A stretch of DNA of 64,000 nucleotides, from positions 1,488,001 to 1,552,000 of the forward strand of contig NC_134830.1 in NCBI RefSeq assembly GCF_004210375.1, read 5' to 3'. A model generated the notes under the pieces. It had not been told where the DNA came from, searched no databases, and was given only the letters and a program-made list of their open reading frames with translations. Positions 856 through 64,000 of the stretch are shown here, piece after piece. Made by a program: the position numbers and the translations under genes. Source of the stretch: Tachypleus tridentatus (Eukaryota > Arthropoda > Merostomata > Xiphosura > Limulidae). Within the stretch, counting starts at the first letter, position 1, and each line of letters starts with the position of its first letter.

Positions 856-1401
856 AACAACAGAAGGAGTAGTTTAGTCAAAGCTTTCCAGAAACAACAG
901 GAGGAGTAGTTTTGTCAAAGCTTTCCAGAAACATCAGAAAGAGTCGTTTTGTCAAAGCTTTCCAGAAACCACAGAAAGAGTCGTTTTGTCAAAGCTTTCC
1001 AGAAACAACAGAAAGAGTCGTTTTGTCAAAGATTTCAAGAAACCAGAAAGAGTCGTTTTGTCAAAGCTACCAGAAACAAAACAGAAAGAGTCGTTTTGTC
1101 AAAGCTTTCCAGAAACAACAGAAAGAGTCGTTTTGTCAAAGCTTTCCAGAAACAACAGAAAAGATGTTTTGTCAAAGCTTTCCAGAAACAACAGAAAGAG
1201 TAGTTTTGTCAAAGCTTTCCAGATACAACCTAAAGAGTAGTTTTGTCAAAGCTTTCCAAGAACCACAAGAAAGAGATGTTTGTCAAAGCTTTCCAGAAAC
1301 AACAGAAAGAGTAGTTTTGTCAAAGCTTTCAGAAACAACAGAAAGAGTAGTTTTGTTAAAGCTTTCCAGAAACAACAGAAAGAGTAGTTTTGTCAAAGCT
1401 A
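856..1401. repeat. Minisatellite, 37-bp unit
   Basis: About 15 copies of a 37-bp unit with core TTTTGTCAAAGCTTTCCAGA, directly abutting the 40-bp array. The unit length is not a multiple of three and the unit has few plus-strand stops. Overlapping reading frames of up to 192 codons therefore arise, cycling through the same peptide in three frames. I see no start context, splice site or homology that would make this a gene. Confidence 0.95.
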
Positions 1402-1850
1402 GCATATCCTACATTAATGTATTGACAGATATCATTAGTAAGTATTTAAATTCAAGTGGTGTATGTCTGGTTATCAGTTTTGGGAACTAAATAATGATAA
1501 CAATCTATATCTACCCGATGTATCTCATTGGAGCGAATGCTACTCAATAGGAAAATCCAATAACAGTATTATCAGATCTGATTTCGCATGTCACATTCAT
1601 ATGAAGGTAAGATACTGTCATTCCTAGAATTCTGAAATTCGACAAATTTTATGCGATAATTCTAGCTGTTGTGATATTTTCAATTTAATGGTTTGAAAAT
1701 CGTTTAAGCGCGCCTCTGAAGATAATAGCAGTAATACCAAAAATAGTTTTCAAACCTTTAACTTACCTTGATTGTCTCAGTGACGTACACGGCTGTTTAA
1801 TGAATAATTTAAACCATGAGCGTCTTAAGAATGTAACAAGTGTAACTAAA
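1402..1850. other. Non-repetitive spacer
   Basis: Single-copy AT-rich sequence between two minisatellites. No convincing reading frame, RNA gene or mobile element was seen. Confidence 0.6.
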
Positions 1851-11200: not shown

Positions 11201-14200
11201 GTTATTAAAACTGTTGACGATAGGTTGTTATTTCCAACAGCTCTGTTCTACTTACCGTAGTGAGTGAGTAAATAATGACGTTATTAAAACTGTTGACGAT
11301 AGGTTGTTATTTCCAACAGCTCTGTTCTACTTACCGCTGAGTGAGTAAATAATGACGTTATTAAAACTGTTGACGATAGGTTGTTATTTCCAACAGCTTT
11401 GTTACCGTACTTACTACCGAGTGAGTAAATAATGACGTTATTAAAACTGTTGACGATAGGTTGTTATTTCCAACAGCTCTGTTCTACTTACCGTACTTAC
11501 CGTAGTGAGTAAATAATGACGTTATTAAAACTGTTGACGATAGGTTGTTATTTCCAACAGCTCTGTTCTACTTACCGTACTGAGTGAGTAAATAATGACG
11601 TTATTAAAACTGTTGACGATAGGTTGTTATTTCCAACAGCTCTGTTCTACTTACCGTAGTGAGTGAGTAAATAATGACGTTATTAAAACTGTTGACGATA
11701 GGTTGTTATTTCCAACAGCTCTGTTCTACTTACCGTAGTGAGTGAGTAAATAATGACGTTATTAAAACTGTTGACGATAGGTTGTTATTTCCAACAGCTC
11801 TGTTCTACTTACCGTACTGAGTGAGTAAATAATGACGTTATTAAAACTGTTGACGATAGGTTGTTATTTCCAACAGCTCTGTTCTACTTACCGTAGTGAG
11901 TGAGTAAATAATGACGTTATTAAAACTGTTGACGATAGGTTGTTATTTCCAACAGCTCTGTTCTACTTACCGTAGTGAGTGAGTAAATAATGACGTTATT
12001 AAAACTGTTGACGATAGGTTGTTATTTCCAACAGCTCTGTTCTACTTACCGTAGTGAGTGAGTAAATAATGACGTTATTAAAACTGTTGACGATAGGTTG
12101 TTATTTCCAACAGCTCTGTTCTACTTACCGTAGTGAGTGAGTAAATAATGACGTTATTAAAACTGTTGACGATAGGTTGTTATTTCCAACAGCTCTGTTC
12201 TACTTACCGTACTGAGTGAGTAAATAATGACGTTATTAAAACTGTTGACGATAGGTTGTTATTTCCAACAGCTCTGTTCTACTTACCGTACTGAGTGAGT
12301 AAATAATGACGTTATTAAAACTGTTGACGATAGGTTGTTATTTCCAACAGCTCTGTTCTACTTACCGTACTGAGTGAGTAAATAATGACGTTATTAAAAC
12401 TGTTGACGATAGGTTGTTATTTCCAACAGCTCTGTTCTACTTACCGTACTGAGTGAGTAAATAATGACGTTATTAAAACTGTTGACGATAGGTTGTTATT
12501 TCCAACAGCTCTGTTCTACTTACCGTAGTGAGTGAGTAAATAATGACGTTATTAAAACTGTTGACGATAGGTTGTTATTTCCAACAGCTCTGTTCTACTT
12601 ACCGTACTGAGTGAGTAAATAATGACGTTATTAAAACTGTTGACGATAGGTTGTTATTTCCAACAGCTCTGTTCTACTTACCGTAGTGAGTGAGTAAATA
12701 ATGACGTTATTAAAACTGTTGACGATAGGTTGTTATTTCCAACAGCTCTGTTCTACTTACCGTAGTGAGTGAGTAAATAATGACGTTATTAAAACTGTTG
12801 ACGATAGGTTGTTATTTCCAACAGCTCTGTTCTACTTACCGTACTGAGTGAGTAAATAATGACGTTATTAAAACTGTTGACGATAGGTTGTTATTTCCAA
12901 CAGCTCTGTTCTACTTACCGTAGTGAGTGAGTAAATAATGACGTTATTAAAACTGTTGACGATAGGTTGTTATTTCCAACAGCTCTGTTCTACTTACCGT
13001 AGTGAGTGAGTAAATAATGACGTTATTAAAACTGTTGACGATAGGTTGTTATTTCCAACAGCTCTGTTCTACTTACCGTAGTGAGTGAGTAAATAATGAC
13101 GTTATTAAAACTGTTGACGATAGGTTGTTATTTCCAACAGCTCTGTTCTACTTACCGTACTGAGTGAGTAAATAATGACGTTATTAAAACTGTTGACGAT
13201 AGGTTGTTATTTCCAACAGCTCTGTTCTACTTACCGTACTGAGTCAGTAAATAATGACGTTATTAAAACTGTTGACGATAGGTTGTTATTTCCAACAGCT
13301 CTGTTCTACTTACCGTACCGAGTCAGTAAATAATGACGTTATTAAAACTGTTGACGATAGGTTGTTATTTCCAACAGCTCTGTTCTACTTACCGTACCGA
13401 GTCAGTAAATAATGACGTTATTAAAACTGTTGACGATAGGTTGTTATTTCCAACAGCTCTGTTCTACTTACCGTAGTGAGTGAGTAAATAATGACGTTAT
13501 TAAAACTGTTGACGATAGGTTGTTATTTCCAACAGCTCTGTTCTGACTTTACCGATAGGTTGTTATTTCCAACAGCTCTGTTCTACTTACCGTAGTGAGT
13601 AAATAATGACGTTATTAAAACTGTTGACGATAGGTTGTTATTTCCAACAGCTCTGTTCTACTTACCGTAGCTCTGTGAGTGAGTAAATAATGACGTTATT
13701 AAAACTGTTGACGATAGGTTGTTATTTCCAACAGCTCTGTTCTACTTACCGTACCGAGTCAGTAAATAATGACGTTATTAAAACTGTTGACGATAGGTTG
13801 TTATTTCCAACAGCTCTGTTCTACTTACCGTACCGAGTCAGTAAATAATGACGTTATTAAAACTGTTGACGATAGGTTGTTATTTCCAACAGCTCTGTTC
13901 TACTTACCGTAGTGAGTCAGTAAATAATGACGTTATTAAAACTGTTGACGATAGGTTGTTATTTCCAACAGCTCTGTTCTACTTACCGTAGTGAGTGAGT
14001 AAATAATGACGTTATTAAAACTGTTGACGATAGGTTGTTATTTCCAACAGCTCTGTTCTACTTACCGTAGTGAGTGAGTAAATAATGACGTTATTAAAAC
14101 TGTTGACGATAGGTTGTTATTTCCAACAGCTCTGTTCTACTTACCGTACCGAGTCAGTAAATAATGACGTTATTAAAACTGTTGACGATAGGTTGTTATT

Positions 14201-17200
14201 TCCAACAGCTCTGTTCTACTTACCGTACTGAGTGAGTAAATAATGACGTTATTAAAACTGTTGACGATAGGTTGTTATTTCCAACAGCTCTGTTCTACTT
14301 ACCGTACTGAGTGAGTAAATAATGACGTTATTAAAACTGTTGACGATAGGTTGTTATTTCCAACAGCTTTGTTGCTACTTACCCATACCGAGAGTGAGTA
14401 AATAATGACGTTATTAAAACTGTTGACGATAGGTTGTTATTTCCAACAGCTCTGTTCTACTTACCGTAGTGAGTGAGTAAATAATGACGTTATTAAAACT
14501 GTTGACGATAGCTTGTTATACCGTTCCAACATGACGTTATTAAAACTGTTTCGATAGGTTGTTATTTCCAACAGCTCTGTTCTACTTACCGTAGTGAGTA
14601 AATAATGACGTTATTAAAACTGTTGACGATAGGTTGTTATTTCCAACAGCTCTGTTCTACTTACCGTAGTGAGTGAGTAAATAATGACGTTATTAAAACT
14701 GTTGACGATAGGTTGTTATTTCCAACAGCTCTGTTCTACTTACCGTACTGAGTGAGTAAATAATGACGTTATTAAAACTGTTGACGATAGGTTGTTATTT
14801 CCAACAGCTCTGTTCTACTTACCGTAGTGAGTGAGTAAATAATGACGTTATTAAAACTGTTGACGATAGGTTGTTATTTCCAACAGCTCTGTTCTACTTA
14901 CCGTAGCTCTGTTGAGTGAGTAAATAATGACGTTATTAAAACTGTTGACGATAGGTTGTTATTTCCAACAGCTCTGTTCTACTTACCGTACTGAGTGAGT
15001 AAATAATGACGTTATTAAAACTGTTGACGATAGGTTGTTATTTCCAACAGCTCTGTTCTACTTACCGTAGTGAGTCAGTAAATAATGACGTTATTAAAAC
15101 TGTTGACGATAGGTTGTTATTTCCAACAGCTCTGTTCTACTTACCGTACTGAGTGAGTAAATAATGACGTTATTAAAACTGTTGACGATAGGTTGTTATT
15201 TCCAACAGCTCTGTTCTACTTACCGTAGTGAGTGAGTAAATAATGACGTTATTAAAACTGTTGACGATAGGTTGTTATTTCCAACAGCTCTGTTCTACTT
15301 ACCGTAGTGAGTGAGTAAATAATGACGTTATTAAAACTGTTGACGATAGGTTGTTATTTCCAACAGCTCTGTTCTACTTACCGTAGTGAGTGAGTAAATA
15401 ATGACGTTATTAAAACTGTTGACGATAGGTTGTTATTTCCAACAGCTCTGTTCTACTTACCGTAGTGAGTGAGTAAATAATGACGTTATTAAAACTGTTG
15501 ACGATAGGTTGTTATTTCCAACAGCTCTGTTCTACTTACCGTACTGAGTGAGTAAATAATGACGTTATTAAAACTGTTGACGATAGGTTGTTATTTCCAA
15601 CAGCTCTGTTCTACTTACCGTACTGAGTGAGTAAATAATGACGTTATTAAAACTGTTGACGATAGGTTGTTATTTCCAACAGCTCTGTTCTACTTACCGT
15701 ACTGAGTGAGTAAATAATGACGTTATTAAAACTGTTGACGATAGGTTGTTATTTCCAACAGCTCTGTTCTACTTACCGTAGTGAGTGAGTAAATAATGAC
15801 GTTATTAAAACTGTTGACGATAGGTTGTTATTTCCAACAGCTCTGTTCTACTTACCGATAGGTTGAGTGAGTAAATAATGACGTTATTAAAACTGTTGAC
15901 GATAGGTTGTTATTTCCAACAGCTCTGTTCTACTTACCGTAGTGAGTGAGTAAATAATGACGTTATTAAAACTGTTGACGATAGGTTGTTATTTCCAACA
16001 GCTCTGTTCTACTTACCGTACCTGAGTGAGTAAATAATGACGTTATTAAAACTGTTGACGATAGGTTGTTATTTCCAACAGCTCTGTTCTACTTACCGTA
16101 CCGAGTCAGTAAATAATGACGTTATTAAAACTGTTGACGATAGGTTGTTATTTCCAACAGCTCTGTTCTACTTACCGTACCGAGTCAGTAAATAATGACG
16201 TTATTAAAACTGTTGACGATAGGTTGTTATTTCCAACAGCTCTGTTCTACTTACCGTAGTGAGTGAGTAAATAATGACGTTATTAAAACTGTTGACGATA
16301 GGTTGTTATTTCCAACAGCTCTGTTCTACTTACCGTAGTGAGTGAGTAAATAATGACGTTATTAAAACTGTTGACGATAGGTTGTTATTTCCAACAGTTC
16401 TACTCTGACGTTATTCTGTTGACGATAGGTTGTTATTTCCAACACTCGTTCTACGTGTGAGTGAGTAAATAATGATATTAAAACGTTGACGATATTAAAA
16501 CTGTTTGACGATAGAGTAAATAATGACGTTATTAAAACTGTTGACGATAGTTGTTATTTCTACTTACCGTACTGAGTGAGTAAATAATGACGTTATTAAA
16601 ACTGTTGACGATAGGTTGTTATTTCCAACAGCTCTGTTCTACTTACCGTACTGAGTGAGTAAATAATGACGTTATTAAAACTGTTGACGATAGGTTGTTA
16701 TTTCCAACAGCTCTGTTCTACTTACCGTACTGAGTGAGTAAATAATGACGTTATTAAAACTGTTGACGATAGGTTGTTATTTCCAACAGCTCTGTTCTAC
16801 TTACCGTAGTGAGTGAGTAAATAATGACGTTATTAAAACTGTTGACGATAGGTTGTTATTTCCAACAGCTCTGTTCTACTTACCGTACTGAGTGAGTAAA
16901 TAATGACGTTATTAAAACTGTTGACGATAGGTTGTTATTTCCAACAGCTCTGTTCTACTTACCGTAGTGAGTCAGTAAATAATGACGTTATTAAAACTGT
17001 TGACGATAGGTTGTTATTTCCAACAGCTCTGTTCTACTAACCGTAGTGAGTGAGTAAATAATGACGTTATTAAAACTGTTGACGATAGGTTGTTATTTCC
17101 AACAGCTCTGTTCTACTTACCGTAGTGAGTGAGTAAATAATGACGTTATTAAAACTGTTGACGATAGGTTGTTATTTCCAAGCTCTGTTCTACTTACCGT

Positions 17201-20200
17201 AGTGAGTGAGTAAATAATGACGTTATTAAAACCGTTTACGATAGGTTGTTATTTCCAACAGCTCTGTTCTACTTACCGTACTGAGTGAGTAAATAATGAC
17301 GTTATTAAAACTGTTGACCATAGGTTGTTATTTCCAACAGCTCTGTTCTACTTACCGTACTCAGTCAGTAAATAATGACGTTATTAAAACTGTTGACGAT
17401 AGGTTGTTATTTCCAACAGCTCTGTTCTACTTACCGTAGTAAATAATGACGTTATTAAAAGTGACAGTAAATAATGACGTTATTAAAACTGTTGACGATA
17501 GGTTGTTATTTCCAACAGCTCTGTTCTACTTACCGTAGTGAGTGAGTAAATAATGACGTTATTAAAACTGTTGACGATAGGTTGTTATTTCCAACAGCTC
17601 TGTTCTACTTACCGTAGTGAGTGAGTAAATAATGACGTTATTAAAACTGTTGACGATAGGTTGTTATTTCCAACAGCTCTGTTCTACTTACCGTACTGAG
17701 TGAGTAAATATTGACGTTATTAAAACTGTTGACGATAGGTTGTTATTTCCAACAGCTCTGTTCTACTTACCGTACTGAGTGAGTAAATAATGACGTTATT
17801 AAAACTGTTGACGATAGGTTGTTATTTCCAACAGCTTTGTTGTACTTACCATACCGAGTCAGTAAATAATGACGTTATTAAAACTGTTGACGATAGGTTG
17901 TTATTTCCAACAGCTCTGTTCTACTTACCGTACCGAGTCAGTAAATAATGACGTTATTAAAACTGTTGACGATAGGTTGTTATTTCCAACAGCTCTGTTC
18001 TACTTACCGTAGTGAGTGAGTAAATAATGACGTTATTAAAACTGTTGACGATAGGTTGTTATTTCCAACAGCTCTGTTCTACTTACCGTAGTGAGTGAGT
18101 AAATAATGACGTTATTAAAACTGTTGACGATAGGTTGTTATTTCCAACAGCTCTGTTCTACTTACCGTAGTGAGTGAGTAAATAATGACGTTATTAAAAC
18201 TGTTGACGATAGGTTGTTATTTCCAACAGCTCTGTTCTACTTACCGTACTGAGTGAGTAAATAATGACGTTATTAAAACTGTTGACGATAGGTTGTTACT
18301 TTAGTGAGTCAGTAAATAATGACGTTATTAAAAGACGATAGGTTGTTATTTCCAACAGCTTTGTTCTACTTACCGTAGTGAGTGAGTAAATAATGACGTT
18401 ATTAAAACTGTTGACGATAGGTTGTTATTTCCAACAGCTCTGTTCTACTTACCGTATTGAGTGAGTAAATAATGACGTTATTAAAACTGTTGACGATAGG
18501 TTGTTATTTCCAACAGCTCTGTTCTACTTACCGTACTGAGTGAGTAAATAATGACGTTATTAAAACTGTTGACGATAGGTTGTTATTTCCAACAGCTCTG
18601 TTCTACTTACCGTACTGAGTGAGTAAATAATGACGTTATTAAAACTGTTGACGATAGGTTGTTATTTCCAACAGCTCTGTTCTACTTACCGTACAGAGTG
18701 AGTAAATAATGACGTTATTAAAACTGTTGACGATAGGTTGTTATTTCCAACAGCTCTGTTCTACTTACCGTACCGAGTGAGTAAATAATGACGTTATTAA
18801 AACTGTTGACGATAGGTTGTTATTTCCAACAGCTCTGTTCTACTTACCGTACCGAGTCAGTAAATAATGACGTTATTAAAACTGTTGACGATAGGTTGTT
18901 ATTTCCAACAGCTCTGTTCTACTTACCGTACCGAGTCAGTAAATAATGACGTTATTAAAACTGTTGACGATAGGTTGTTATTTCCAACAGCTCTGTTCTA
19001 CTTACCGTAGTGAGTGAGTAAATAATGACGTTATTAAAACTGTTGACGATAGGTTGTTATTTCCAACAGCTCTGTTCTACTTACCGTAGTGAGTGAGTAA
19101 ATAATGACGTTATTAAAACTGTTGACGATAGGTTGTTATTTCCAACAGCTTTGTTCTACTTACCGTAGTGAGTGAGTAAATAATGACGTTATTAAAACTG
19201 TTGACGATAGGTTGTTAATTCCAACAGCTCTGTTCTACTTACCGTACTGAGTGAGTAAATAATGACGTTATTAAAACTGTTGACGATAGGTTGTTATTTC
19301 CAACAGCTCTGTTCTACTTACCGTAGTGAGTGAGTAAATAATGACGTTATTAAAACTGTTGACGATAGGTTGTTATTTCCAACAGCTCTGTTCTACTTAC
19401 CGTAGTGAGTGAGTAAATAATGACGTTATTAAAACTGTTGACGATAGGTTGTTATTTCCAACAGCTCTGTTCTACTTACCGTAGTGAGTGAGTAAATAAT
19501 GACGTTATTAAAACTGTTGACGATAGGTTGTTATTTCCAACAGCTCTGTTCTACTTACCGTAGTGAGTGAGTAAATAATGACGTTATTAAAACTGTTGAC
19601 GATAGGTTGTTATTTCCAACAGCTCTGTTCTACTTACCGTAGTGAGTGAGTAAATAATGACGTTATTAAAACTGTTGACGATAGGTTGTTATTTCCAACA
19701 GCTCTGTTCTACTTACCGTAGTGAGTGAGTAAATAATGACGTTATTAAAACTGTTGACGATAGGTTGTTATTTCCAACAGCTCTGTTCTACTTACCGTAC
19801 TGAGTGAGTAAATAATGACGTTATTAAAACTGTTGACGATAGGTTGTTATTTCCAACAGCTCTGTTCTACTTACCGTACCGAGTGAGTAAATAATGACGT
19901 TATTAAAACTGTTGACGATAGGTTGTTATTTCCAACAGCTCTGTTCTACTTACCGTATTTGAGTCAGTAAATAATGACGTTATTAAAACTGTTGACGATA
20001 GGTTGTTATTTCCAACAGCTCTGTTCTACTTACCGTAGTGAGTGAGTAAATAATGACGTTATTAAAACTGTTGACGATAGGTTGTTATTTCCAACAGCTC
20101 TGTTCTACTTACCGTAGTGAGTGAGTAAATAATGACGTTATTAAAACTGTTGACGATAGGTTGTTATTTCGAACAGCTCTGTTCTACTTACCGTAGTGAG

Positions 20201-23089
20201 TGAGTAAATAATGACGTTATTAAAACTGTTGACGATAGGTTGTTATTTCCAACAGCTCTGTTCTACTTACCGTACCGAGTCAGTAAATAATGACGTTATT
20301 AAAACTGTTGACGATAGGTTGTTATTTCCAACAGCCTGTTCTACTTACCGTACAGTAAATAATGACGTTATTAAAACTGTTGACGATAGGTTGTTATTTC
20401 CAACAGCTCTGTTCTACCGTACCGTGAGTGAGTAAATAATGACGTTATTAAAACTGTTTACGATAGGTTGTTATTTCCAACAGCTCTGTTCTACTTACCG
20501 TACTCAGTCAGTAAATAATGACGTTATTAAAACTGTTGACGATAGGTTGTTATTTCCAACAGCTCTGTTCTACTTACCATACTCAGTCAGTAAATAATGA
20601 CGTTATTAAAACTGTTGACGATAGGTTGTTATTTCCAACAGCTCTGTTCTACTTACCGTAGTGAGTAAGTAAATAATGACGTTATTAAAACTGTTGACGA
20701 TAGGTTGTTATTTCCAACAGCTCTGTTCTAATTACCGTAGTGAGTAAGTAAATAATGACGTTATTAAAACTGTTAACGATAGGTTGTTATTTCCAACAGC
20801 TCTGTTCTACTTACCGTACTGAGTGAGTAAATAATGACGTTATTAAAACTGTTGACGATAGATTGTTATTTCCAACAGCTTTGTTGTACTTACCATACCG
20901 AGTCAGTAAATAATGACGTTATTAAAACTGTTGACGATAGGTTGTTATTTCCAACAGCTCTGTTCTACTTACCGTAGTGAGTGAGTAAATAATGACGTTA
21001 TTAAAACTGTTGACGATAGGTTGTTATTTCCAAGCTCTGTTCTACTTACCGTAGTGAGTGAGTAAATAATGACGTTATTAAAACTGTTGACGATAGGTTG
21101 TTATTTCCAACAGCTCTGTTCTACTTACCGTAGTGAGTGAGTAAATAATGACGTTATTAAAACTGTTGACGATAGGTTGTTATTTCCAAGCTCTGTTCTA
21201 CTTACCGTAGTGAGTGAGTAAATAATGACGTTATTAAAACTGTTGACGATAGGTTGTTATTTCCAACAGCTCTGTTCTACTTACCGTACTGAGTGAGTAA
21301 ATAATGACGTTATTAAAACCGTTTACGATAGGTTGTTATTTCCAACAGCTTTGTTCTACTTACCGTACTGAGTGAGTAAATAATGACGTTATTAAAACTG
21401 TTTACGATAGGTTGTTATATCCAACAGCTCTGTTCTACTTACCGTAATGAGTGAGTAAATAATGACGTTATTAAAACTGTTGACCATAGGTTGTTATTTC
21501 CAACAGCTCTGTTCTACTTACCGTACTGAGTGAGTAAATAATGACGTTATTAAAACTGTTTACGATAGGTTGTTATTTCCAACAGCTTTGTTCTACTTAC
21601 CGTACGGAGTGAGTAAATAATGACGTTATTAAAACTGTTGACGACAGGTTGTTATTTCCAACAGCTCTGTTCTACTTACCGTACCGAGTCAGTAAATAAT
21701 GACGTTATTAAAACTGTTGACGATAGGATGTTATTTCCAACAGCTTTGTTCTACTTACCGTACTGAGTGAGTAAATAATGACGTTATTAAAACTGTTTAC
21801 GATAGGTTGTTTTTTCCAACAGCTCTGTTCTACTTACCGTAGTGAGTGAGTAAATAATGACGTTATTAAAACTGTTGACGATAGGTTGTTATTTCCAAGC
21901 TCTGTTCTACTTACCGTAGTGAGTGAGTAAATAATGGCGTTATTAAAACTGTTGACCATAGGTTGTTATTTCCAACAGCTCTGTTATACTTACCGTACTG
22001 AGTGAGTAAATAATGACGTTATTAAAACTGTTTACGATAGGTTGTTATTTCCCACAGATTTGTTCTACTTACCGTACTGAGTGAGTAAATAATGACGTTA
22101 TTAAAACTGTTTACGATAGGTTGTTATATCCAACAGCTCTGTTCTACTTACCGTAGTGAGTGAGTAAATAATGACGTTATTAAAACTGTTGACGATAGGT
22201 TATTTCCAACAGCTCTGTTATACTTACCGTACCTGAGTGAGTAAATAATGACGTTATTAAATGAGTTTACGATAGGTTGTTATTTCCAACAGCTCTGTTC
22301 TACTAACCGTAGTGAGTGAGTAAATAATGACGTTATTAAAACTATTGACGATAGGTTGTTATTTCCAACAGCTCTGTTCTACTTAGCGTACTGAGTGAGT
22401 AAATAATGACGATATTAAAACTGTTGACGATAGGTTGTTATTTCCAACAGCTCTGTTCTACTAACCGTAGTGAGTGAGTAAATAATGACGTTATTAAAAC
22501 TGTTGACGATAGGTTGTTATTTCCAACAGCTCTGTTCTACTTACCGTACTGAGTGAGTAAATAATGACGTTATTAAAACTGTTGACGATAGGTTGTTATT
22601 TCCAACAGCTTTGTTCTACTTACCGTACTGAGTGAGTAAATAATGACGTTATTAAAATTGTTTACGATAGGTTGTTATATCCAACAGCTCTGTTCTACTT
22701 ACCGTAGTGATTGAGTAAATAATGACGTTATTAAAACTGTTGACCATAGGTTGTTATTTCCAACAGCTCTGTTCTACTTTCTGTACTGAGTGAGTAAATA
22801 ATGACGTTATTAAAACTGTTTACGATAGGTTTTTATTTCCAACAGCTCTGTTCTACTTACCGTAGTGAGTGTGTAAATAATGACGTTATTAAAACTGTTT
22901 ACGATAGGTTGTTATTTCCAACAGCTCTGTTCTACTTACCGTACTCAGTCAGTAAATAATGACGTTATTAAAACTGTTGACGATAGGTTGTTATTTCCAA
23001 CAGCTCTGTTCTACTTACCATACTCAGTCAGTAAATAATGACGTTATTAAAACTGTTTACGATAGGTTGTTATTTCCAACAGCTCTGTT
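5242..23089. repeat. Satellite array, 79-bp unit, about 226 copies
   Basis: A 17.8-kb array of a 79-bp unit. The period is read directly from successive AGTAAATAATGACG starts at 5242, 5321 and 5400. Each unit contains the near-palindrome TAATGACGTTATTA, the segment GGTTGTTATTTCCAACAG and the string TCTACTTACCGTA. Main variants are CGTACTGAGTGAG, CGTAGTGAGTGAG and CGTACCGAGTCAG, and TTGACG versus TTTACG. The centre is very homogeneous. The ends, especially from 20.4 kb on, are more diverged, as expected from homogenisation by unequal exchange. Several short scrambled patches interrupt it (near 9.55, 10.2, 13.55, 14.5, 16.4, 17.45 and 18.3 kb). The left end is at a gap, so the real array may be longer. 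It lies upstream of the first visible FGF exon, either in an FGF intron or in the 5' flank. Confidence 0.98.
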
Positions 23090-48004: not shown

Positions 48005-48355
48005 CAAGTGGTTCTTTGTCCTACCATTACAATATGCAGTTGCTTGTTTCTTGATATATTAAGATACTTACAGGACAAGTCAGTTGCAAGATACAGTCAG
48101 CAACCACTGTGGATATTACTTCAAGTGGTTTTTTGACCTACCATTATAATATGCAGTTGTTTGTTTCCTAATATATTAAGATACTTACAGGAGAAGTCCG
48201 TTAGAAGATATGGTCAACAACTGTTGTGGATGTTACTTCATGTCGTTCTTCGACCTACTGCTTCAACTTGAAATCCAATAGCGAGTAACTCATCCACATT
48301 TAGGATTTTTCTTCCATCAAATATAAATGCAGGTTTTAGCATGGAGTTATATATC
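48005..48355. repeat. 117-bp triplication that includes the UGDH terminal exon end
   Basis: Starts of the repeated CAAGTGG / CATGTCG segment lie at 48005, 48122 and 48239, a step of 117 bp. The third unit begins at the UGDH stop codon and reads back into its last codons. The other two are diverged downstream copies. On the minus strand each of the first two units contains CCTGTAAGTATC, a good splice-donor match. Confidence 0.75.
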
Positions 48356-48372
48356 TTCTTATAGTCTAAATG
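48238..48372 (-). CDS. Ugdh: UDP-glucose 6-dehydrogenase, last coding exon
   Basis: Terminal coding exon on the minus strand, 44 codons plus TGA, after a TATTGTAG acceptor in phase 0. UGDH oxidises UDP-glucose to UDP-glucuronate with two NAD+ in the cytosol, feeding glycosaminoglycan synthesis. The peptide LDYKKIYNSMLKPAFIFDGR matches the C-terminal domain, including the FDGR(R/K) motif whose arginine contacts substrate across the subunit interface, and then IGFQVEAVG. The preceding exon ends in SEFL, and the join reproduces the family spacing exactly. The predicted end, GRRTT, is about 25 residues shorter than the vertebrate tail. A further 3' exon using one of the nearby donors would be an alternative, but the in-frame TGA comes first. 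Confidence 0.92.
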   Translation of the reverse strand, partial: HLDYKKIYNSMLKPAFIFDGRKILNVDELLAIGFQVEAVGRRTT

Positions 48373-48605
48373 CTACAATAATAAAAATGTTGTAACTTGA
48401 TGCATTCACTCTGTCTGACAGAAAGTAAACTTTATATATACTTTTAAATTTATCTGTATGAGTTCTAATAGATCATTAAGTTCTCAATATCTAAATTTAA
48501 TATATTTTATGTGCGCGTGTGTGTAGACAACTTAGGAACATTGATTTGTTACCCCTCATAACATATTTAGAAATACTTCACATTCGTGGAAAATTGTATG
48601 AATGA

Positions 48606-54299: not shown

Positions 54300-57200
54300 A
54301 TGAGATTAAAAGATTAATGGCCATTAAAAATTAAAAACATTATCAAGGTGGACAGAGTCACCATCACCAATAACTCTGTCCAATGTTACAGACTGACCCT
54401 GGGAAAAATATGTTTAAAATATTGCCGTCGTTGAGAATTGTAACGATGGCAAGAAAGTAAAACGTGGCTGATAGTGATTTGAGTGTTACACAAACTACAC
54501 ATTGGTGCATCAGTTCCAGATAAAAGAAAATGATGAGTTAAAAAACTGTGACCAATGCGTAGCCTAGTGAGAACAACTTCCTCCTTCCGAACTTTACGGA
54601 AGCTAGATGGCCAAAGTCCAATTTTGGGTTTGATTTGAAAAGTTTGTTGTCACGTTGCTCACCCAAGTGGACTGCCAGCTGGCACGGAGCCGAGCCTGAA
54701 GACAACACCATAGTCCATGTACGGAATAGGCATAGGAGTGATGGTACTGAAGCAGACATATTTAGCTGCCATGTATGCAAGCTCGTTCCCGCGATACCAA
54801 CATGGCCTGGTATCCAGAAAAACTGGATTGAAGTAGCTGCTAATGAGAAATGGGCCAGTCGGTTTCGAATATCAGCGAGAATAGGATGTGAGCTAACGTG
54901 TAGCGATTCCAAGGCAAGTATAGAACTAAGCGAATCAGTATAAATAGTGCAGTTGGAGTACTGCTCAGCTGCAATATAATCCAGGGCAAGAGATATGGCA
55001 TACAGTTCAGCAGTGAACACAGAAGCTGTAGAAGGGATTCTGCGCGCAACTACTGACCCATAGCAGAGCCCACTAAATTACCTGATTTGGAACCATCTGT
55101 ATAAATGGAAACTGAATGATTGTTTGAAAGATATTCATTGAATAAAAGACGGTACTTCCAAACTGGAGTATCTGCCTTTTTTCAGGTGATTGAAAGAAAG
55201 GTCACATTTGAGGGCTGTAATAAGCCATGGTGGGATGGGCCAACCTGTGGAATCTGCAATGTTATCCAAGGACAGACCCAATTTATCCAATTGCGCCCGG
55301 ATGCGAAGGCCAAACGGAGCAATGACAAATCGTCTGTTCTGAAAAAGTACTGCCCACCGAGGAAGGAAAACACATTTCCAGGTGGGATGCTTTGGTAAGG
55401 AATGAAGTTTCGAAGTATAGTGTAAAGATAGTTGCAAACGGCGAAGGTGTAGAGAAGGTTCATGAGATTCAATGTATATACTTTGAACTGGAGAGGTACG
55501 GAAAGCCCCAGTGCAGAGTCAAAGTCCTTGGTGATGAATGGGGTCCAGCATCTTTAAGGCCGAGGGTCTGGCAGAGCCATAGACCATTGATCCATAATCG
55601 AGTTTCGATCTAATAAGAGCACGATATACCTTTAACATTGAACAGCGATCTGCCCCCCCAACTGGTAGAAGAGAGAACACGGAGGATGTTCAGTGCTGTT
55701 GTGCATTTGACCCGAAGCTGCTTTAAGTGTGGTATAAAGGTCAGTTTACGATCAAAGATAAGCCTCAAGAACTTGGTCTCCGGGACCACTGGCAGCAAAA
55801 CTTCACCGATATGAAGTTCAGGATCAGGGTGAATACCCGTCGACGGCAAAAGTGCATGCATACAGTTTTGGAGAGAGAGAAATTAAAGCCGTTCGCCAGA
55901 GTCCACTTCCGTACACAATTGAGGTCGGTTTGTAGTTGCCGCTCAATATATCTCATGTTTGACGACTGACATGTGAAAGTCGTCGACATACAGCCCATTC
56001 GCAACAGTGAGAGGGAGTTGTTTAGTGATTGCATTTATCTTTATACTGAAGAGTGTAACACTCAATACACAGCCTTGAGGGACTCCAAGTTCCTGTACAA
56101 AAGAACGGGAAAGTGTCGAACCCACACGAACTTGGAATCTCCTGTCCATTAAAAATTTTTTAATAAACATGGGTACATGGCCACGTAACCCATATGTATG
56201 GAGGTCTCGCAAAACGCCATACCTCCATGTTGTGTCGTAAGCCTTCTCTATGTCAATGAATATTGATACAAGATGTTGGCGGTTGAGAAAGGCTTCTCTG
56301 ATAGATGTTTCAAGACGAATTAGGTGGTCTGTGGTGGAGTGCTGTCGACGGAACCCACACTGGGTGGGAGAGGAGGTTGTTTGATTCAAGGAACCAAACA
56401 AGACGAGCATTAACCATCCTTTCTAATGTCTTACAGAGACAGCTCGTCAAAGCAATTGGACGGTAGTTTGAAGGAATCTTGGGATCTTTCCCTGGCCTAG
56501 AGAAAGGTAAAATAATAGCCTGGCGCCAGGCATCAGGAAAAACATTATCCTGCCAGATCCGGTTGAAAACAATCAGAAGGACATCAAGAGAAGCAGGAGA
56601 TAGATAGTGCAGCATGTCATAATGAATATCATCAGGTCCAACAGACGTACTGGCAGACCGAAGAAGGGCCATTTTTTAGTTCCACCAGGGTAAAGGGACA
56701 ATTATAGTCAAAGAAACAGTCAGTTCGAAAGGAAAGAGGTGATCGCTCTGCCCGAGTCTTGATGGCCAGGAAGGTGGAGGAACAAGCAGAAGTGCTAGAT
56801 ACCCGGCAAAAGCTTTCACCTAGAGTGTTAGCAATGTTCCGAACATCAGTCACCTCCTGACCATCAGAGAGTAAGATCGAGAGGGGGGACAGAATTGTAG
56901 TGCCCATTGACCTTTCGAATCCTGTCCCATATGATCTTGGAACTGGTGGTAGAAGATATGCTGGTTGTGAACTTAATCCAAGATTCCTTCTGGCTTTGAC
57001 GTCTTACCCACCCAGCATGTGCACGGGCCCGTTGGAAAGCAACCCGGTTTGAAAATGTAGGATATCTAGGAAAAGTATCCCAGGCCCGCTTTTGAGCCTT
57101 CCGTGCTAAGTGGCAAGCAGGATTCCACCACGGACGAGGATATCGTGGAAAACGTGTCGAGGTTTTAGGAATACACTGAGCAGCTGCATGTGTAATACAG

Positions 57201-57991
57201 TCAGTTACCGCTGCTACACAGTCGTCTATTGATGGCTGATTTACGATGGCAGGATCAAGTTCTGCGAGAGCAGTGAAAGTGGACCAGTCTGCCTGATCCA
57301 GCTTCCACCGGGGCACACGGGTTGGGTGGCATCGACCACGGCAAGTCTCTCTCAAAAGGATCAGAAAATGATCACTGCCTAGTGGATTACTGTCAACCCT
57401 CCAAGATAAATGGGAGAATAATGAAGAGGAGCAAACTGAGAGATCAATAGCGGTAAAGGACTGACTAGGTGCATGAAAGTAAGTGGAAGAACCAGTATTG
57501 AAAAGAGAAAGATTGTGATCAGAGAGCATCCGCTCTACAGATCGGCTCCTCCCATCAATAATAGCACTTCCCCAGAGGGGATGATGTCCATTAAAATCCC
57601 CTAGGATTAGAAATGGAGATGGCAATTGTTCAACAAGAGCATCAAAATCTGATTGATCATATGTCTCTCCAGGGGATAGGTACAGAGAACAAACAGTGAT
57701 GGTATGACCCAAGGAAACACGGATGGCTACAGCCTCCAAGGGTGTGTTGAGTGACAAAGACAGGGTGGGCACGTGTTGATCAACCAACAGTGCCACCCCT
57801 CCATGTACTCGACCATCACACAACCTGTCATTTCTGTACAGAGGAAACTGCCGAATGGAGACAGTATCAGCAGTTTTGAGAAATGTTTCTTGTAAAGAAA
57901 GACAAACAGGATGGTAGGAAGCAATCAGCGTTTTGATATCATCCAGATTAGAACGTAAACCTCGACAGTTCCATTGTATCAAGGTGGCCAT
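54300..57991 (-). pseudogene. LINE copy A ORF2 (endonuclease, reverse transcriptase, RNase H), broken
   Basis: Would encode a protein of about 1,200 residues that nicks the target and copies the LINE RNA. The first 375 residues are open from the ATG at 57991 and carry the APE endonuclease motifs QWNCRG, LSLQET, GDFNGHHPLWG and SDHFL. After 56864 the frame changes repeatedly (at least five times). Reverse transcriptase motifs remain readable: NYRPIALTS, DIEKAYDTTW, VPQGCVLS and the catalytic YVDDF (55943-56672). They are followed by RNase H motifs FTAELYAI, IYTDS and WIPGHVG (54538-55020). Endonuclease residues look intact, so this copy decayed recently or suffers consensus errors. ORF2 starts one base after the ORF1 stop. 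Confidence 0.9.
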
Positions 57992-57992
57992 T

Positions 57993-59213
57993 TTAAGAAT
58001 GGGTAGGTGAAGTGGCTGGAGAACCCTTCGGTTTACGACCACGTCTTTTTTTCTTTACTGTCTTTAGTCGGAGGAGGTCTATCAACCTCCATGGATCCTG
58101 CTCTGGGTCGGGTGGGCAGATTTTGTTATTGGAAGGGGAATCCAGTGACTGAGGACGCGAATGAATAATTGTTTTGTCTCTTGTGGTGGGAGAAAAAGAT
58201 GTATCAGAAGAAATGCCTGTATTTGAAACTGAAGGACGTGGATCTTGAGGTTTGTTGGAAGGTATGGGAGGAACAGAGATGAGTGTGGAAGTCGATTCAT
58301 CAACCTTTTTAACCATGGAGGTCAAAAGGCTTTTCATTTGTTTTGAAAACGATTCTCTTGGAGGCACAGAGAGATCTGTCTGCACCCCCACTGTAGTTGT
58401 GGAATGAAGTGCAGGAGCATATGACCGAGATGGAGTTGTGGACAGCAATTTCCGAGCCTCAGGATAACTAATGTTATGTGTCGTTTTCAAACGCTGCACA
58501 TCTTTTTCCTCCAACCATTTTGGGCAAGAATGAAAGTAAGAGGGATGAAAACTATTGCAGTTTACGCAATGTGGGTTCATGTCACAGTCATAGGCATCGT
58601 GGTCCTTGCCTCCACAACGAGCACATGTCAGGGAACCACGACAAGATGTCTTTGAGTGGCCGAATCTCTGACATTGGAAACATCGAAGAGGGTTTGGTAT
58701 GTATGGCCGAACCCTGCAAATGAGATAACCTGCCTTGATGGTAGCAGGTGCACGTGGTGAAGTAAATGTTAAAACGAGGGTATTTGTTGGCAGTGTAACT
58801 CCATCTTTGCGAGTGGAGATGCGCCTCACTGCAGAAACTCCTTGAGTGGAGAGACCAGCGAAAATCTCTGACTCGGGAACGTTCTTGAAATCCCTTTCAA
58901 CAATAACTCGTCGTGAAGAATTCAAGGTAGCATGGGGTGTAACCTCAATAGGTATATCCCCAATTGCCTTTGAATTCAAGAGGAGTTCACTGTGTTGGGA
59001 TGTGGATGTTTCAACCAATATGTCACCAAATCGAAGTTTCTTTACTGACATTGGAGAGCCAGCAAGTCCCTCTAGTCCCTTTTGAATAAAAAAAGGGAAC
59101 ATTTGCCCTAATGGTTTTTCCGAAAGAGAATGTAATATAAGAAAATGAGGTACGTGTGTTACTGATGTTGAAGATTGCTGTTCTGAGTATTCAAGACGTG
59201 GTCGCTTACCCAT
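57993..59213 (-). CDS. LINE copy A ORF1, gag-like nucleic-acid-binding protein
   Basis: Intact frame of 406 codons starting at ATG 59213 (MGKRPRLEYSEQQSSTS). ORF1 proteins of this LINE group bind the element's RNA and escort it to the nucleus. Three zinc knuckles are visible: C178-C191 (CFQCQRFGHSKTSC), C197-C210 (CARCGGKDHDAYDC) and C216-C230 (CVNCNSFHPSYFHSC, slightly irregular). Before them, residues of about 60-175 look like the RNA-recognition-type fold seen in this group. A Ser/Thr/Pro-rich segment follows, and a basic KKKRRGRKPKG near the C terminus is a likely nuclear signal. It ends with TAA, one base before the ORF2 ATG (TAAAATG). Copies B and C keep only broken parts of this ORF. 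Confidence 0.93.
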   Translation of the reverse strand: MGKRPRLEYSEQQSSTSVTHVPHFLILHSLSEKPLGQMFPFFIQKGLEGLAGSPMSVKKLRFGDILVETSTSQHSELLLNSKAIGDIPIEVTPHATLNSSRRVIVERDFKNVPESEIFAGLSTQGVSAVRRISTRKDGVTLPTNTLVLTFTSPRAPATIKAGYLICRVRPYIPNPLRCFQCQRFGHSKTSCRGSLTCARCGGKDHDAYDCDMNPHCVNCNSFHPSYFHSCPKWLEEKDVQRLKTTHNISYPEARKLLSTTPSRSYAPALHSTTTVGVQTDLSVPPRESFSKQMKSLLTSMVKKVDESTSTLISVPPIPSNKPQDPRPSVSNTGISSDTSFSPTTRDKTIIHSRPQSLDSPSNNKICPPDPEQDPWRLIDLLRLKTVKKKRRGRKPKGSPATSPTHS

Positions 59214-59750: not shown

Positions 59751-60185
59751 AGATAATCAAGTACATTAGAGCAAACATATGATAACATTTAAAATTTTAC
59801 TGAATAAAAATGTTTAATATATATCTATTAGGTTTGAGATATTACACAAATGCGATTTTAAAGTTTTTACACAAAACAAATATTTTTAATCACATATTCA
59901 AAACCACTTTGTATCATATAGTTAGCATTATGAGTGCAAAATGTCATAATAAAATGATAAACAATTCTTTAGTTAAATACTTAATAAAAAAATTTAAATT
60001 TTTATTGTTTATAACAGTCTGTGAAAAACTTGTAGTAACTAATCTCATGGTTACATGACACACAACTTGTAACCATAGAGTTAGAATCTTAAACTATATT
60101 CCCCATTACTCTTTTCACAAGTCCCTCTTTCCCTGTAACAACTCTCATGTCTTATGTTTATATTATTTTCAAAGCCTAAACATAC
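59751..60185 (-). other. UGDH last intron, 5' part
   Basis: AT-rich intron sequence between fragment E and the donor TTG|GTATGT of the exon ending at 60186. No other feature. Confidence 0.6.
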
Positions 60186-60277
60186 CAAGAACTCACTCCA
60201 CTCTGTACAGATGACCACTGCATGGGCTCCTTCTGAGGCTGAATATGGATTTGTATGAAATGACAGCAACTCTAGAA
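60186..60277 (-). CDS. Ugdh: UDP-glucose 6-dehydrogenase, exon with GAHAVVICTEW
   Basis: Ninety-two bases. Two bases complete a Val codon with the phase-1 G of the upstream exon. Thirty codons follow, including NPYSASEGAHAVVICTEWSE, which is nearly invariant in UGDH (vertebrate DPYEACDGAHAVVICTEW). It lies in the C-terminal Rossmann-like UDP-binding domain. Acceptor TTTTATCTGCAG, donor TTG|GTATGT, phase 0. The next exon is 11.8 kb away at 48372 because the intron filled with mobile elements. Confidence 0.94.
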
Positions 60278-60977
60278 CTGCAGATAAAAGGCCTTGTACA
60301 TAATATATTGGACAGTTTTAAGGAAGGTTCAGTGATTAAGTACAATAAAATGGCAGCAGAAAAACATAAGTAGCTTGAACCTAATTCATTCTAATGATAT
60401 ACGTTTTAGTGAAATTGGTAAAGAAGACAGATGCTATGGCCATGTAAGGTTAAAACATTCTCAAATGAATAGTTTTATTACTTATGAGTAGAATATTTTT
60501 ATATAGATAAAATACATGGCATATCAGTAAAAGTTATGATAAATCAAGCACTGGAAAGGTCTATGAAGAAGACTTACCTTTAAATAGTAAAGCAACTAGT
60601 CATTTAATAGTAAAACAACTGGTCATCTGATGGTTGTATTTTTAAATTTTTTAAATTTCATGCTCAGGAATATCAGTAACTTACAAATACCATAATGTTG
60701 GAAAAATGAGATTATTTATATTCTAGTATTATTTCTTTGTTTCCATATCATTGAAAATATTACTCAAACGATAAGTCATATAAAGATCATTTAATATTGT
60801 AAGAAAATAGGTCAGTAGGCATTAAAACTATGAGGAAAACGTCATGAAGGAAAGCATTATAATAGTTTTATCATTAAATAAAAACCTTTAACTACACTAT
60901 AGATAAGTCACTTATAAACGTATGTACTTCAATATGATACAACATGAAACACAATAAGAAAAACAAACACACAAGAC
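60278..60977 (-). other. UGDH intron
   Basis: About 700 bp of AT-rich single-copy intron. No feature recognised. Confidence 0.65.
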
Positions 60978-61018
60978 CTTTTTCTGGTTCATCTGTAATA
61001 TCTGGGTGTGTGAGATCT
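60978..61018 (-). CDS. Ugdh: UDP-glucose 6-dehydrogenase, 41-bp exon
   Basis: Short exon encoding E-DLTHPDITDEPEK, the counterpart of vertebrate VDLSHPGVSEDDQ. It starts after TTGTTTATAG and takes the phase-2 GA from the upstream exon to make a Glu codon. It ends with a phase-1 G at AAAAAG|GTCTTG. The donor is weak (GTCTTG), but the reading frame and protein alignment continue correctly on both sides. Confidence 0.85.
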
Positions 61019-61325: not shown

Positions 61326-61421
61326 TCAATTATTTGTTGTTGATTTACTTTGGGGTCATAAATGGATAAGAGGGCTCCTTCTTCTAACAGATGTTTACAG
61401 ACATAGATAGCAGGAGATTCT
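61326..61421 (-). CDS. Ugdh: UDP-glucose 6-dehydrogenase, exon ESPAIYV to DPKV
   Basis: Ninety-six bases encoding ESPAIYVCKHLLEEGALLSI and then YDPKVNQQQII, matching vertebrate [25 protein letters not shown]. This is the start of the C-terminal UDP-binding domain. Acceptor ATATTGTAG; donor ATTGA|GTAAGT. It begins with one base that must complete an AG- codon (Arg of the GDTR motif). That two-base remainder is exactly what the exon at 62879-63009 supplies, although that exon is on the other strand. Confidence 0.94.
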
Positions 61422-61608
61422 CTACAATATTAACAATCAGTTGTTAATATTAAATGAGAAAAGTTTGATTGTATTTAAAAATGAGAAAACAAAATTTTTA
61501 ATTACATATGAAAAGGATTATAAAAATATATAATTTTTCCTACACTGAAAATGTATTTCTAATAAATACTTACCTTCCTATTACATCATTTATTTGTGTT
61601 CAGTGCTG
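61422..61608 (-). other. UGDH intron up to the gap
   Basis: Intron sequence upstream of the exon at 61421, running into the gap. No feature recognised. Confidence 0.6.
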
Positions 61609-62108
61609 NNNNNNNNNNNNNNNNNNNNNNNNNNNNNNNNNNNNNNNNNNNNNNNNNNNNNNNNNNNNNNNNNNNNNNNNNNNNNNNNNNNNNNNNNNNN
61701 NNNNNNNNNNNNNNNNNNNNNNNNNNNNNNNNNNNNNNNNNNNNNNNNNNNNNNNNNNNNNNNNNNNNNNNNNNNNNNNNNNNNNNNNNNNNNNNNNNNN
61801 NNNNNNNNNNNNNNNNNNNNNNNNNNNNNNNNNNNNNNNNNNNNNNNNNNNNNNNNNNNNNNNNNNNNNNNNNNNNNNNNNNNNNNNNNNNNNNNNNNNN
61901 NNNNNNNNNNNNNNNNNNNNNNNNNNNNNNNNNNNNNNNNNNNNNNNNNNNNNNNNNNNNNNNNNNNNNNNNNNNNNNNNNNNNNNNNNNNNNNNNNNNN
62001 NNNNNNNNNNNNNNNNNNNNNNNNNNNNNNNNNNNNNNNNNNNNNNNNNNNNNNNNNNNNNNNNNNNNNNNNNNNNNNNNNNNNNNNNNNNNNNNNNNNN
62101 NNNNNNNN
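61609..62108. other. Assembly gap, 500 N
   Basis: Exactly 500 N. The UGDH exons on its two sides are consecutive but on opposite strands, so the contig to the right is probably placed in the wrong orientation. Confidence 0.99.
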
Positions 62109-62595
62109 AAACCTAATGAAAGTTTTAATACCGATTATCATGTTTAAACCTAATGAAAGTTTTAACACTGATTATCATGTTTAAACCTAATGAAAGTTTT
62201 AACACTGATTATCATGTTTAAACGTAATGAAAGTTTTAATACTGATTAACATGTTTAAACCTAATGAAAGCTTTAACACTGATTATCATGTTTAAACGTA
62301 GTGAAAGTTTTAACACTGATTATCATGTTTAAACGTAATGAAAGTTTTAATACCGATTAACATGTTTAAACCTAATGAAAGCTTTAACACTGATTATCAT
62401 GTTTAAACGTAATGAAAGTTTTAACACTGATTATCATGTTTAAACGTAATGAAAGTTTTAATACTGATTAACATATTTAAACGTAATGAAAGTTTTAATA
62501 CTGATTAACATGTTTAAACCTAATGAAAGCTTTAACACTGATTAACATGTTTAAACCTAATGAAAGTTTTAATACCGATTAACATGTTTAAATGT
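62109..62595. repeat. Tandem repeat, 37-bp unit
   Basis: About 13 copies of AAACCTAATGAAAGTTTTAA plus CACTGATTATCATGTTT. Two variants (CCTAATG/CGTAATG and TTATCATG/TTAACATG) are interspersed. Starts at the gap edge. Unrelated to the 37-bp array at 856. Confidence 0.95.
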
Positions 62596-62878
62596 ATGTT
62601 TCTACTAAAAATGAAGCACATGTGAATTTTTGCGATGACTATAAATCCACTCGAAGTAAAAATATATCTCAAGAGGGATGTTATGATTATTAAAACTTTT
62701 ATTACAATAAAGTAGTGAACAACATTTCAACCTGAAGATGACCTAGAAGGTTGAAATGTTGGTGTCCACTTTATTTTAACAAAAGTTTTAATAACAATAC
62801 TAGCTGTATTCATATACATGTGAATTTTATAACAGTTATCATGATTCAAGCTACTTCTTAATTTCTGTGTATTAGCAG
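62596..62878. other. UGDH intron before the + strand exon
   Basis: Single-copy intron sequence containing the inverted repeat at 62685-62796. It ends in the acceptor TCTGTGTATTAGCAG. Confidence 0.65.
62685..62796. repeat. Imperfect inverted repeat (foldback)
   Basis: Two arms of about 48 nt (62685-62732 and 62748-62796) are reverse complements with roughly eight mismatches, separated by about 15 nt. The inner ends are ACATTTCAACCT and AGGTTGAAATGT. Probably a small foldback or MITE-like element, or the ends of a longer element brought together. Confidence 0.8.
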
Positions 62879-63009
62879 ATAATAGAAATGAACAGATATC
62901 AGAGGACTCGATTCGTTCAAAGAATTGCTGAAAAGCTTTTCAACACACTTACTGGTAAAAAAATTACAGTTTTTGGATTCGCTTTCAAGAAGAGTACAGG
63001 GGATACAAG
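62879..63009 (+). CDS. Ugdh: UDP-glucose 6-dehydrogenase, exon IIEMN to GDTR (opposite strand)
   Basis: A 131-bp exon after TTAGCAG, phase 0, ending ACA AG|GTACGA in phase 2. It encodes [20 protein letters not shown] and then [19 protein letters not shown]. These match vertebrate VIDMNDYQRRRFASRI and ILGFAFKKDTGDTR, which cover the helix linking the domains and the conserved FAFKK substrate-binding segment. In the protein it comes directly before the exon at 61421-61326, and the phases join without a gap. It is on the plus strand while the rest of UGDH is on the minus strand. Earlier exons, with the NAD-binding domain and catalytic Cys, are not in the window. Confidence 0.93.
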
Positions 63010-63029
63010 GTACGAAAAATGGAAAACTG

Positions 63030-63435
63030 TTAGATGTCTTCATATTCATTACTCTGTAGTCGGCACTTTCCTCAACATTATTTTGTTTCTTGTGTTTACA
63101 TATCCATTACTCTGTAGTCAGCATTTTCCTCTACATTATTTTGTATCTTGTGTTTACATATCCATTATTCTGTAGTCAGCATTTTCCTCTACATTATTTT
63201 GTATCTTGTGTTTACATATCCATTATTCTGTAGTCAGCATTTTCCTCTACATTATTTTGTATCTTATGTTTACATATCCATTACTCTGTAGCTGGTGTTT
63301 TTCCATACGTTATTTTGAACCTTGTGTTTACATATCCATTACTTTGTAGTTGGCGTTTTTCTATACATTATTTTGTATTTTGTGTTTGCATATCCATTTC
63401 TCTGTAGCTCATGTTATTTCATACATTACTTCCTA
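63030..63435. repeat. Tandem repeat, 58-bp unit, in UGDH intron
   Basis: About seven copies of a 58-bp unit with core TTTACATATCCATTACTCTG and a CTACATTATTTTGTATCTTG part. It begins 20 bp after the exon donor, and later units are more diverged. Confidence 0.93.
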
Positions 63436-64000
63436 GTTACTTTTGTCTGAATCACTTTATCAAAATGGTGTTTTCTGGTGACTGTTGTTGTTTCTGAGCA
63501 AGTTGTGTCTGAATCATATTTTGAAGATGTGGTTTCTCTGGTGACTGTTGTTGTTTCCAAGTTAGTTTTATCTGAATCACTTTATCAAAATGTAGTTTCT
63601 CTGGTGACTGTTGTTGTTTCCAAGTTAGTTTTATCTGAATCACATTATCAAGATGTAGTTTCTCCGGTGACTGTTGTTGATTTTGAGCTAGTTGTGTCTG
63701 AATCACATTATCAAGATGTAGTTTCTCTGGTGACTGTTGTTGTTTCCAAGTTAGTTTTATCTGAATCACATTATCAAGATGTAGTTTCTCCGGTGACTGT
63801 TGTTGATTCTGAGCTAGTTGTGTCTGAATCACATTATCAAGATGTAGTTTCTCTGGTGACTGTTGTTGTTTCCAAGTTAGTTTTATCTGAATCACTTTAT
63901 CAAGATGTAGTTTCTCTGGTGACTGTTGTTGTTTCCAAGTTAGTTTTATCTGAATCACTTTATCAAGATGTAGTTTCTCTGGTGACTGTTGTTGTTTCCA
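63436..64000. repeat. Minisatellite, 63-bp unit, reaching the window edge
   Basis: About nine copies of a 63-bp unit with core CTGGTGACTGTTGTTGTTTC. There are two variants (A, TTCCAAGTTAGTTTTATC; B, TTCTGAGCTAGTTGTGTC) in the order B A A B A B A A. Since 63 is a multiple of three, the minus strand stays open for 168 codons with a 21-residue period (containing KLTWKQQQSPEKLHL). It lies in a UGDH intron and is antisense to that exon, so it is not called as a gene. Confidence 0.94.

Follow-up and report, generated by a model that had tools for sequence, protein, structure and literature searches.

A probable allelic false duplication of the UGDH 3′ half, placed tail to tail on a chromosome scaffold of Tachypleus tridentatus

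An assembly gap between two copies of a sequence has been described as a mark of false duplication (PMC9516828). The heterotype false duplications reported by Ko et al. (2022; PMC9516828) are the closest known counterpart of the locus analyzed here, with which they share near-identical copies on one scaffold, a gap between these copies, and a false partial gene copy. In contrast to those cases, the copies at this locus are inverted and lie tail to tail, and both are probably displaced by about 1.1 Mb relative to the remainder of the gene; the main text of that study contains none of the terms "inverted", "opposite", or "orientation". For the horseshoe crab Tachypleus tridentatus, duplicates with at least 98% identity were reported for 4,855 of 34,966 predicted proteins of a chromosome-scale assembly, leading to the conclusion that it contains considerable redundancy and mis-assembly (PMC7210998). 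For their own assembly of the mangrove horseshoe crab, the same authors described duplicate heterozygous contigs as well as pairs of contigs whose ends overlap (PMC7210998). Table 1 of another study gives 34,966 genes for the T. tridentatus assembly CNA0000821 (PMC7815833), and the assembly that had been judged redundant is very probably the one used here. Whereas the redundancy in PMC7210998 is expressed as a genome-wide protein count, the present analysis concerns a single locus and the layout of its contigs.

The window is a 64,000-nucleotide stretch of T. tridentatus DNA on chromosome-scaffold C6 (C6:1488001-1552000), taken from an assembly of 2,167,478,450 bases in 205 contigs. The exons at this locus match the UDP-glucose 6-dehydrogenase (UGDH) chains of PDB entries 2q3e and 2o3j and the domain families PF03721, PF00984, and PF03720 in gene order. 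Compared with these structures, the encoded protein pieces appear to hold nothing unusual, and only their placement in the assembly seems odd. Judged from the DNA itself, the locus is very probably a heterotype (allelic) false duplication combined with misplacement in a diploid assembly, that is, an assembly error and not biology.

UGDH exons on the two sides of the gap

Two contigs meet in the window. Contig A1 (C6:1493242-1549608, window 5242-61608) carries a copy of the UGDH 3′ half on the minus strand, and is separated by a scaffold gap of exactly 500 N (window 61609-62108) from contig A2 (C6:1550109-1608750), whose plus-strand copy begins within the window part (62109-64000) and which extends 56.7 kb past the window. 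The plus-strand exon of A2 at 62879-63009, encoding 43 residues (IIEMN...GDT plus a terminal AG; the GDTR exon), is preceded by AG and followed by GT, and UDP-glucose 6-dehydrogenase accounts for 14 of its 21 PDB matches (E 2.9e-13 to 1.5e-8). The remaining seven matches, including the top-ranked one, were rejected as WD-40 repeat artefacts in which no single stretch passes. On the minus strand of A1, the exon at 61326-61421 ((R)ESPAIYV...QQII, ESPAIYVCKHLLEEGALLSIYDPKVNQQQII; the ESPAIYV exon) is bordered by AG and GT and opens with the nucleotide needed to complete the Arg codon of the GDTR exon. It matches the UDP-binding domain PF03720 at 28.3 bits when scanned alone, against a cut-off of 30, and at 34.1 bits in a wider frame. 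The initial annotation had described these as consecutive exons of UGDH that lie on opposite strands with a 500-N gap between them, and this description holds, with matching phase and splice sites; their adjacency in UGDH is borne out by the paralogue on scaffold C10, in which both exons share a strand and follow each other in this order at a distance of 3.7 kb. Further exons follow on the minus strand of A1, namely the next exon at 60978-61018 (DLTHPDITDEPEK; borders set by eye from AG/GT), an exon with NPYSASEGAHAVVICTEWSEF at 60185-60285 (approximate borders, placed by eye via its copy in A2), and the last exon at 48235-48375 (HLDYKKIYNSMLKPAFIFDGRK...RRTT and a stop; approximate borders, computed from the reversed A1).

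UGDH also continues inside A2. An exact copy of the ESPAIYV exon of A1, with AG/GT borders, is present on the plus strand of A2 at C6:1556881-1556976, together with a PF03720 match at C6:1556864; in window numbering it would stand at 68881-68976, past the window end and 5.9 kb downstream of the GDTR exon. In A2-internal positions, the GDTR (771-901) and ESPAIYV (6773-6868) exons are both on the plus strand and are followed there by the DLTHPD exon (~7180), the TEWSEF exon (~7990), and the final exon, which encodes FDGRK and contains the stop (~19.5-19.65 kb). The ESPAIYV, DLTHPD, and last exons (the latter at window ~48.3 kb, minus strand) are mirrored in A1, in which the TEWSEF exon was located by eye. 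Since A2 carries its own downstream exons, it represents a plus-strand gene that has no need of A1, and A1 is not its missing half.

This result bears directly on the earlier proposal that the two exons facing the gap are each other's missing neighbors, which has to be abandoned because A2 has its own ESPAIYV exon and continues through to the stop. The proposal implied that the right contig is simply inverted and that flipping it would restore one UGDH gene across the gap, as the opposite strands, the matching phase, and the exon adjacency across a scaffold gap had suggested. However, C6:1550109-1608750 has an ESPAIYV exon of its own along with everything that follows in the gene up to the stop, and by simple arithmetic a flip of A2 where it stands would move its GDTR exon to ~58 kb from the ESPAIYV exon of A1 and leave two 3′ halves head to tail. 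A simple inversion is therefore already refuted, and we regard it as next to impossible. What stands is the reading as a scaffolding artefact at the 500-N gap, where the relative orientation of the contigs is untrustworthy, whereas flipping the right contig is not supported, given its own downstream exons. The initial annotation had also named a complete second UGDH gene continuing along the plus strand beyond 64 kb as evidence against its reading, and such a continuation was found, for the 3′ half of the gene.

Near-identical copies and the 5′ half of the gene

A1 and A2 were compared after tandem-repeat masking, the unmasked comparison of the two C6 places being swamped by a 79-bp array. From A2 6587, which corresponds to the last base of A1, up to where the 79-bp array begins, A2 matches A1 with both order and strand reversed, and A1 is contained in A2 as far as its own array. 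A global alignment of A2 6587-46172 with the reversed A1 (38.5 kb outside the array) comprised 37,836 identical and 117 different bases (99.69% over 37,953 aligned bases), the differences being 77 transitions and 40 transversions, in addition to 69 gap runs covering 2,199 bases. Non-coding sequence is included in this near-identity, which extends through introns and an inserted retrotransposon. Searched against the whole genome, a 1,129-base probe from A1 matched at full length twice, once in A1 and once in A2, and partially over 78 bases on C13. The insertion in the last UGDH intron (window 54538-59213, minus strand) is an apparent non-LTR retrotransposon with open reading frames for a PF14529 endonuclease and a PF00078 reverse transcriptase, and with an RNase H match below threshold. 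The element falls in a stretch where A1 and A2 align at 99.3%, and a relative about 80% alike is found at window ~42.2-44.1 kb.

Genuine paralogues, such as copies from a whole-genome duplication, might in principle be interleaved tail to tail at the gap, as horseshoe crabs are reported to have undergone three rounds of whole-genome duplication (PMC7815833) and C10 carries a UGDH paralogue. However, C6 and C10 are only 76-85% identical in exons (some of these matches being repeat-like), compared with 99.69% between A1 and A2, so that this explanation is likewise already refuted and scarcely conceivable.

The upstream exons of UGDH are found on C6 in and before contig B1 (C6:2647921-2698198), which lies 1.1 Mb from A1 and A2. 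On the plus strand, 5′ exons are located at 2545918, 2563530, 2685040, 2687065, and 2687854, the PF03721 and PF00984 exons spanning 2545918-2688021. A stretch conserved with the C10 paralogue at ~C6:2691305 is likely to be a further exon. An identical copy of the GDTR exon then follows at C6:2693902 (plus strand), after which B1 ends. Only with A2 following B1 do the exons for the N-terminal, central, and UDP-binding domains fall in order on one strand. B1 (over its last 5.07 kb) and A2 (over its first 5.02 kb) form a dovetail from the first base of A2 to the last base of B1, with 4,920 identical and 17 different bases (99.66% over 4,937 aligned bases), so that the divergence is about equal in the two pairs (0.31% for A1/A2 and 0.34% for B1/A2). 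No match to B1 was found for the last 8.4 kb of A1, and the masked A1 shares with B1 only repeats of at most 267 bases at 82-90% identity. On the scale of A2, B1 stops at ~5015 and A1 starts at 6587, leaving 1.57 kb between them; for 791 bases of this interval, the single full-length match in the genome was A2 itself, alongside partial matches of a dispersed repeat.

The three contigs cover one locus in two tilings, one consisting of A2 alone and the other of B1 and the reversed A1 with ~1.57 kb missing. Contigs of the same tiling do not overlap, whereas overlaps between the tilings reach 99.66-99.69% identity, which is the picture expected of two alleles kept apart by the assembler. The two copies would accordingly be alleles of one locus, A1 probably representing one allele of the UGDH 3′ half. 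Some findings speak against an allelic origin. The substitution divergence of 0.31-0.34% is about half of the heterozygosity of ~0.65% published for another T. tridentatus individual (PMC6390705), and the UGDH 5′ part of the other haplotype was not seen, most 5′ exons on C6 having been found once.

A real and recent inverted duplication, in the form of a palindrome with arms of ~52 kb that copies the UGDH 3′ half on C6, would also produce near-identical inverted copies on one scaffold and two full-length genome matches to the 1.1 kb probe, and animal sex chromosomes do carry true palindromes whose arms are comparably similar. Such a palindrome should show continuous sequence between its copies and boundaries independent of contig ends. 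However, the copies are separated by the assembly gap at 61609-62108 and the breakpoints coincide with contig ends, since A1 is contained in A2 up to the array, B1 and A2 dovetail, and the end of A1 has no match in B1. Inside the array, the correspondence of A1 and A2 is lost after 4.8 kb. The same divergence is also present in the B1/A2 overlap, outside the supposed palindrome, and the UGDH 5′ half on C6 would have no 3′ half in place, and the left copy no 5′ half. In addition, the assembly contains further near-identical inverted pairs at other places. A palindrome is thus very unlikely, and we hold out equally little expectation for a version of it that is young (99.69% outside the array), includes the 79-bp satellite, and is possibly polymorphic between individuals.

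The search for a second full UGDH gene on C6 led to its rejection, most 5′ exons being found once only: this applies to the PF03721 exons for positions 1-59, 91-149, and 143-182 and to the PF00984 exon, and the exon for positions 46-90 gave two hits, at 2563530 (plus strand) and 2932720 (minus strand). The full-length model TIGR03026 gave only six matches to central exons, none of them over the cut-off. The second and third detected UGDH exons are separated by an intron of 121 kb in the scaffold (C6:2563661-2685040), compared with ~8 kb in the C10 paralogue; an examined portion of 45 kb consists mostly of a 48-bp tandem array (to C6:2681457) and includes a 500-N gap, and further misplaced contigs may lie inside this intron.

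Tandem arrays and the probable place of the contigs

The contigs at both places break at tandem arrays: a 37-mer at the start of A2, a 71-mer at the end of B1, and a 79-mer at the ends of A1 and A2 and at the start of contig B2, which begins at C6:2698699 after the gap C6:2698199-2698698. The 37-bp repeat (62109-62596, plus strand, end approximate) occupies the very start of A2 and is also present in B1, and is likely the reason for the contig break there. The 79-bp array (AGTAAATAATGACGTTATTAAAACTGTTGACGATAGGTTG...) occupies window 5242-23089 in A1, C6:1596281-1608750 in A2, and C6:2698699-2736113 in B2, covering ~12 to 37 kb in these contigs, each of which begins or ends inside it. A further array of ~9 kb at C6:2476382-2485327 means that the array is not unique to B2. 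A genome search with the 79-mer, in which two of five candidates were scored, did not have A1, A2, or B2 among the matches listed. The arrays of A1 and A2 remain in register for only 4.8 kb at 97.3% identity, and then differ in length, which also counts against the allelic reading. The flanking contigs have other arrays, the one left of A1 (window 1-4741) ending in a 58-bp tandem repeat and the one after A2 (C6:1609251-1612000) starting with a different, 50-bp repeat. In the 232 kb examined around the two C6 places, all five gaps are exactly 500 N long, so that 500 N looks like a fixed placeholder.

An allelic false duplication with misplacement could have arisen at these arrays as follows. 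A single ordinary UGDH gene on C6 would have been broken by the assembler at the tandem arrays, with both parental alleles of its 3′ half kept, A2 representing one haplotype and B1 plus the reversed A1 the other. The scaffolder would then have joined A1 and A2 tail to tail with a 500-N placeholder, ~1.1 Mb away from the gap that follows B1. The mirrored layout may stem from Hi-C scaffolding in which two alleles are taken for neighbors, so that a block is followed by its mirror. The proper place of the block would be the gap at C6:2698199-2698698, to which both contigs of the window probably belong, and B2 opens in the 79-mer on the strand expected after A2, which makes this gap the most likely location. 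An in-register overlap between the array end of A2 and the array start of B2 was not found, so the placement before B2 draws on the shared array, the strand, and the overlap with B1.

Similar pairs elsewhere in the assembly

The UGDH paralogue on C10 is itself present in two inverted copies ~1 Mb apart (102728320-102766570, minus strand; 103773872-103807140, plus strand), and the best pieces of six exon-centered pairs are 94.1, 97.9, 98.1, 98.4, 99.1, and 99.4% identical. A partial third copy with the later exons (102242017-102248948, plus strand) is inverted to one of these copies and parallel to the other, and is 99.7 and 97.1% identical to the 102.73-Mb copy at two exons. The C10 copies are probably false duplications of the same kind. 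In addition, one UGDH exon on C6 has an inverted second copy with 98.9% identity, and a MutS-domain gene has inverted copies 0.75 Mb apart on C4 (C4:116359986-116367469, minus strand; C4:117107537-117115088, plus strand), which in a 1.4-kb sample are 98.8% identical over 742 bases and 99.1% over 460 bases. Another MutS match recurs on C32 (a C10/C32 pair among the matches listed).

The frequency of such pairs was sampled in 14 gene clusters, counted by eye among the matches listed (the best candidates) and comprising two UGDH, three polymerase B, five MutS, and four tRNA synthetase I clusters. A second equal or near-equal match was found for four of these clusters, namely the C6 UGDH (the finding itself), the C10 UGDH, the C4 MutS, and the C10/C32 MutS; the first three were checked at the DNA level. 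The other ten (all three polymerase B, all four tRNA synthetase, and three of the five MutS clusters) had no second copy among the matches listed. Duplication in the assembly is patchy, a point against the explanation as a false duplication. Every same-scaffold pair observed here is inverted (A1/A2, the C6 exon, C10, and C4), although four pairs are too few for a rule. Given the inverted pairs at the C10 UGDH and C4 MutS loci, seemingly recent inverted duplicates in this assembly should first be checked for an origin as haplotigs.

We see no new biology at the locus, and its significance is one of caution only. UGDH counts in this assembly, like studies of synteny, inversions, or gene families after duplication, would meet a spurious extra partial gene, a broken true gene, and a false inversion here. 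As a separate observation on gene content, coagulogen (PF02035), which to our knowledge is confined to horseshoe crabs, has 19 matches in the genome.
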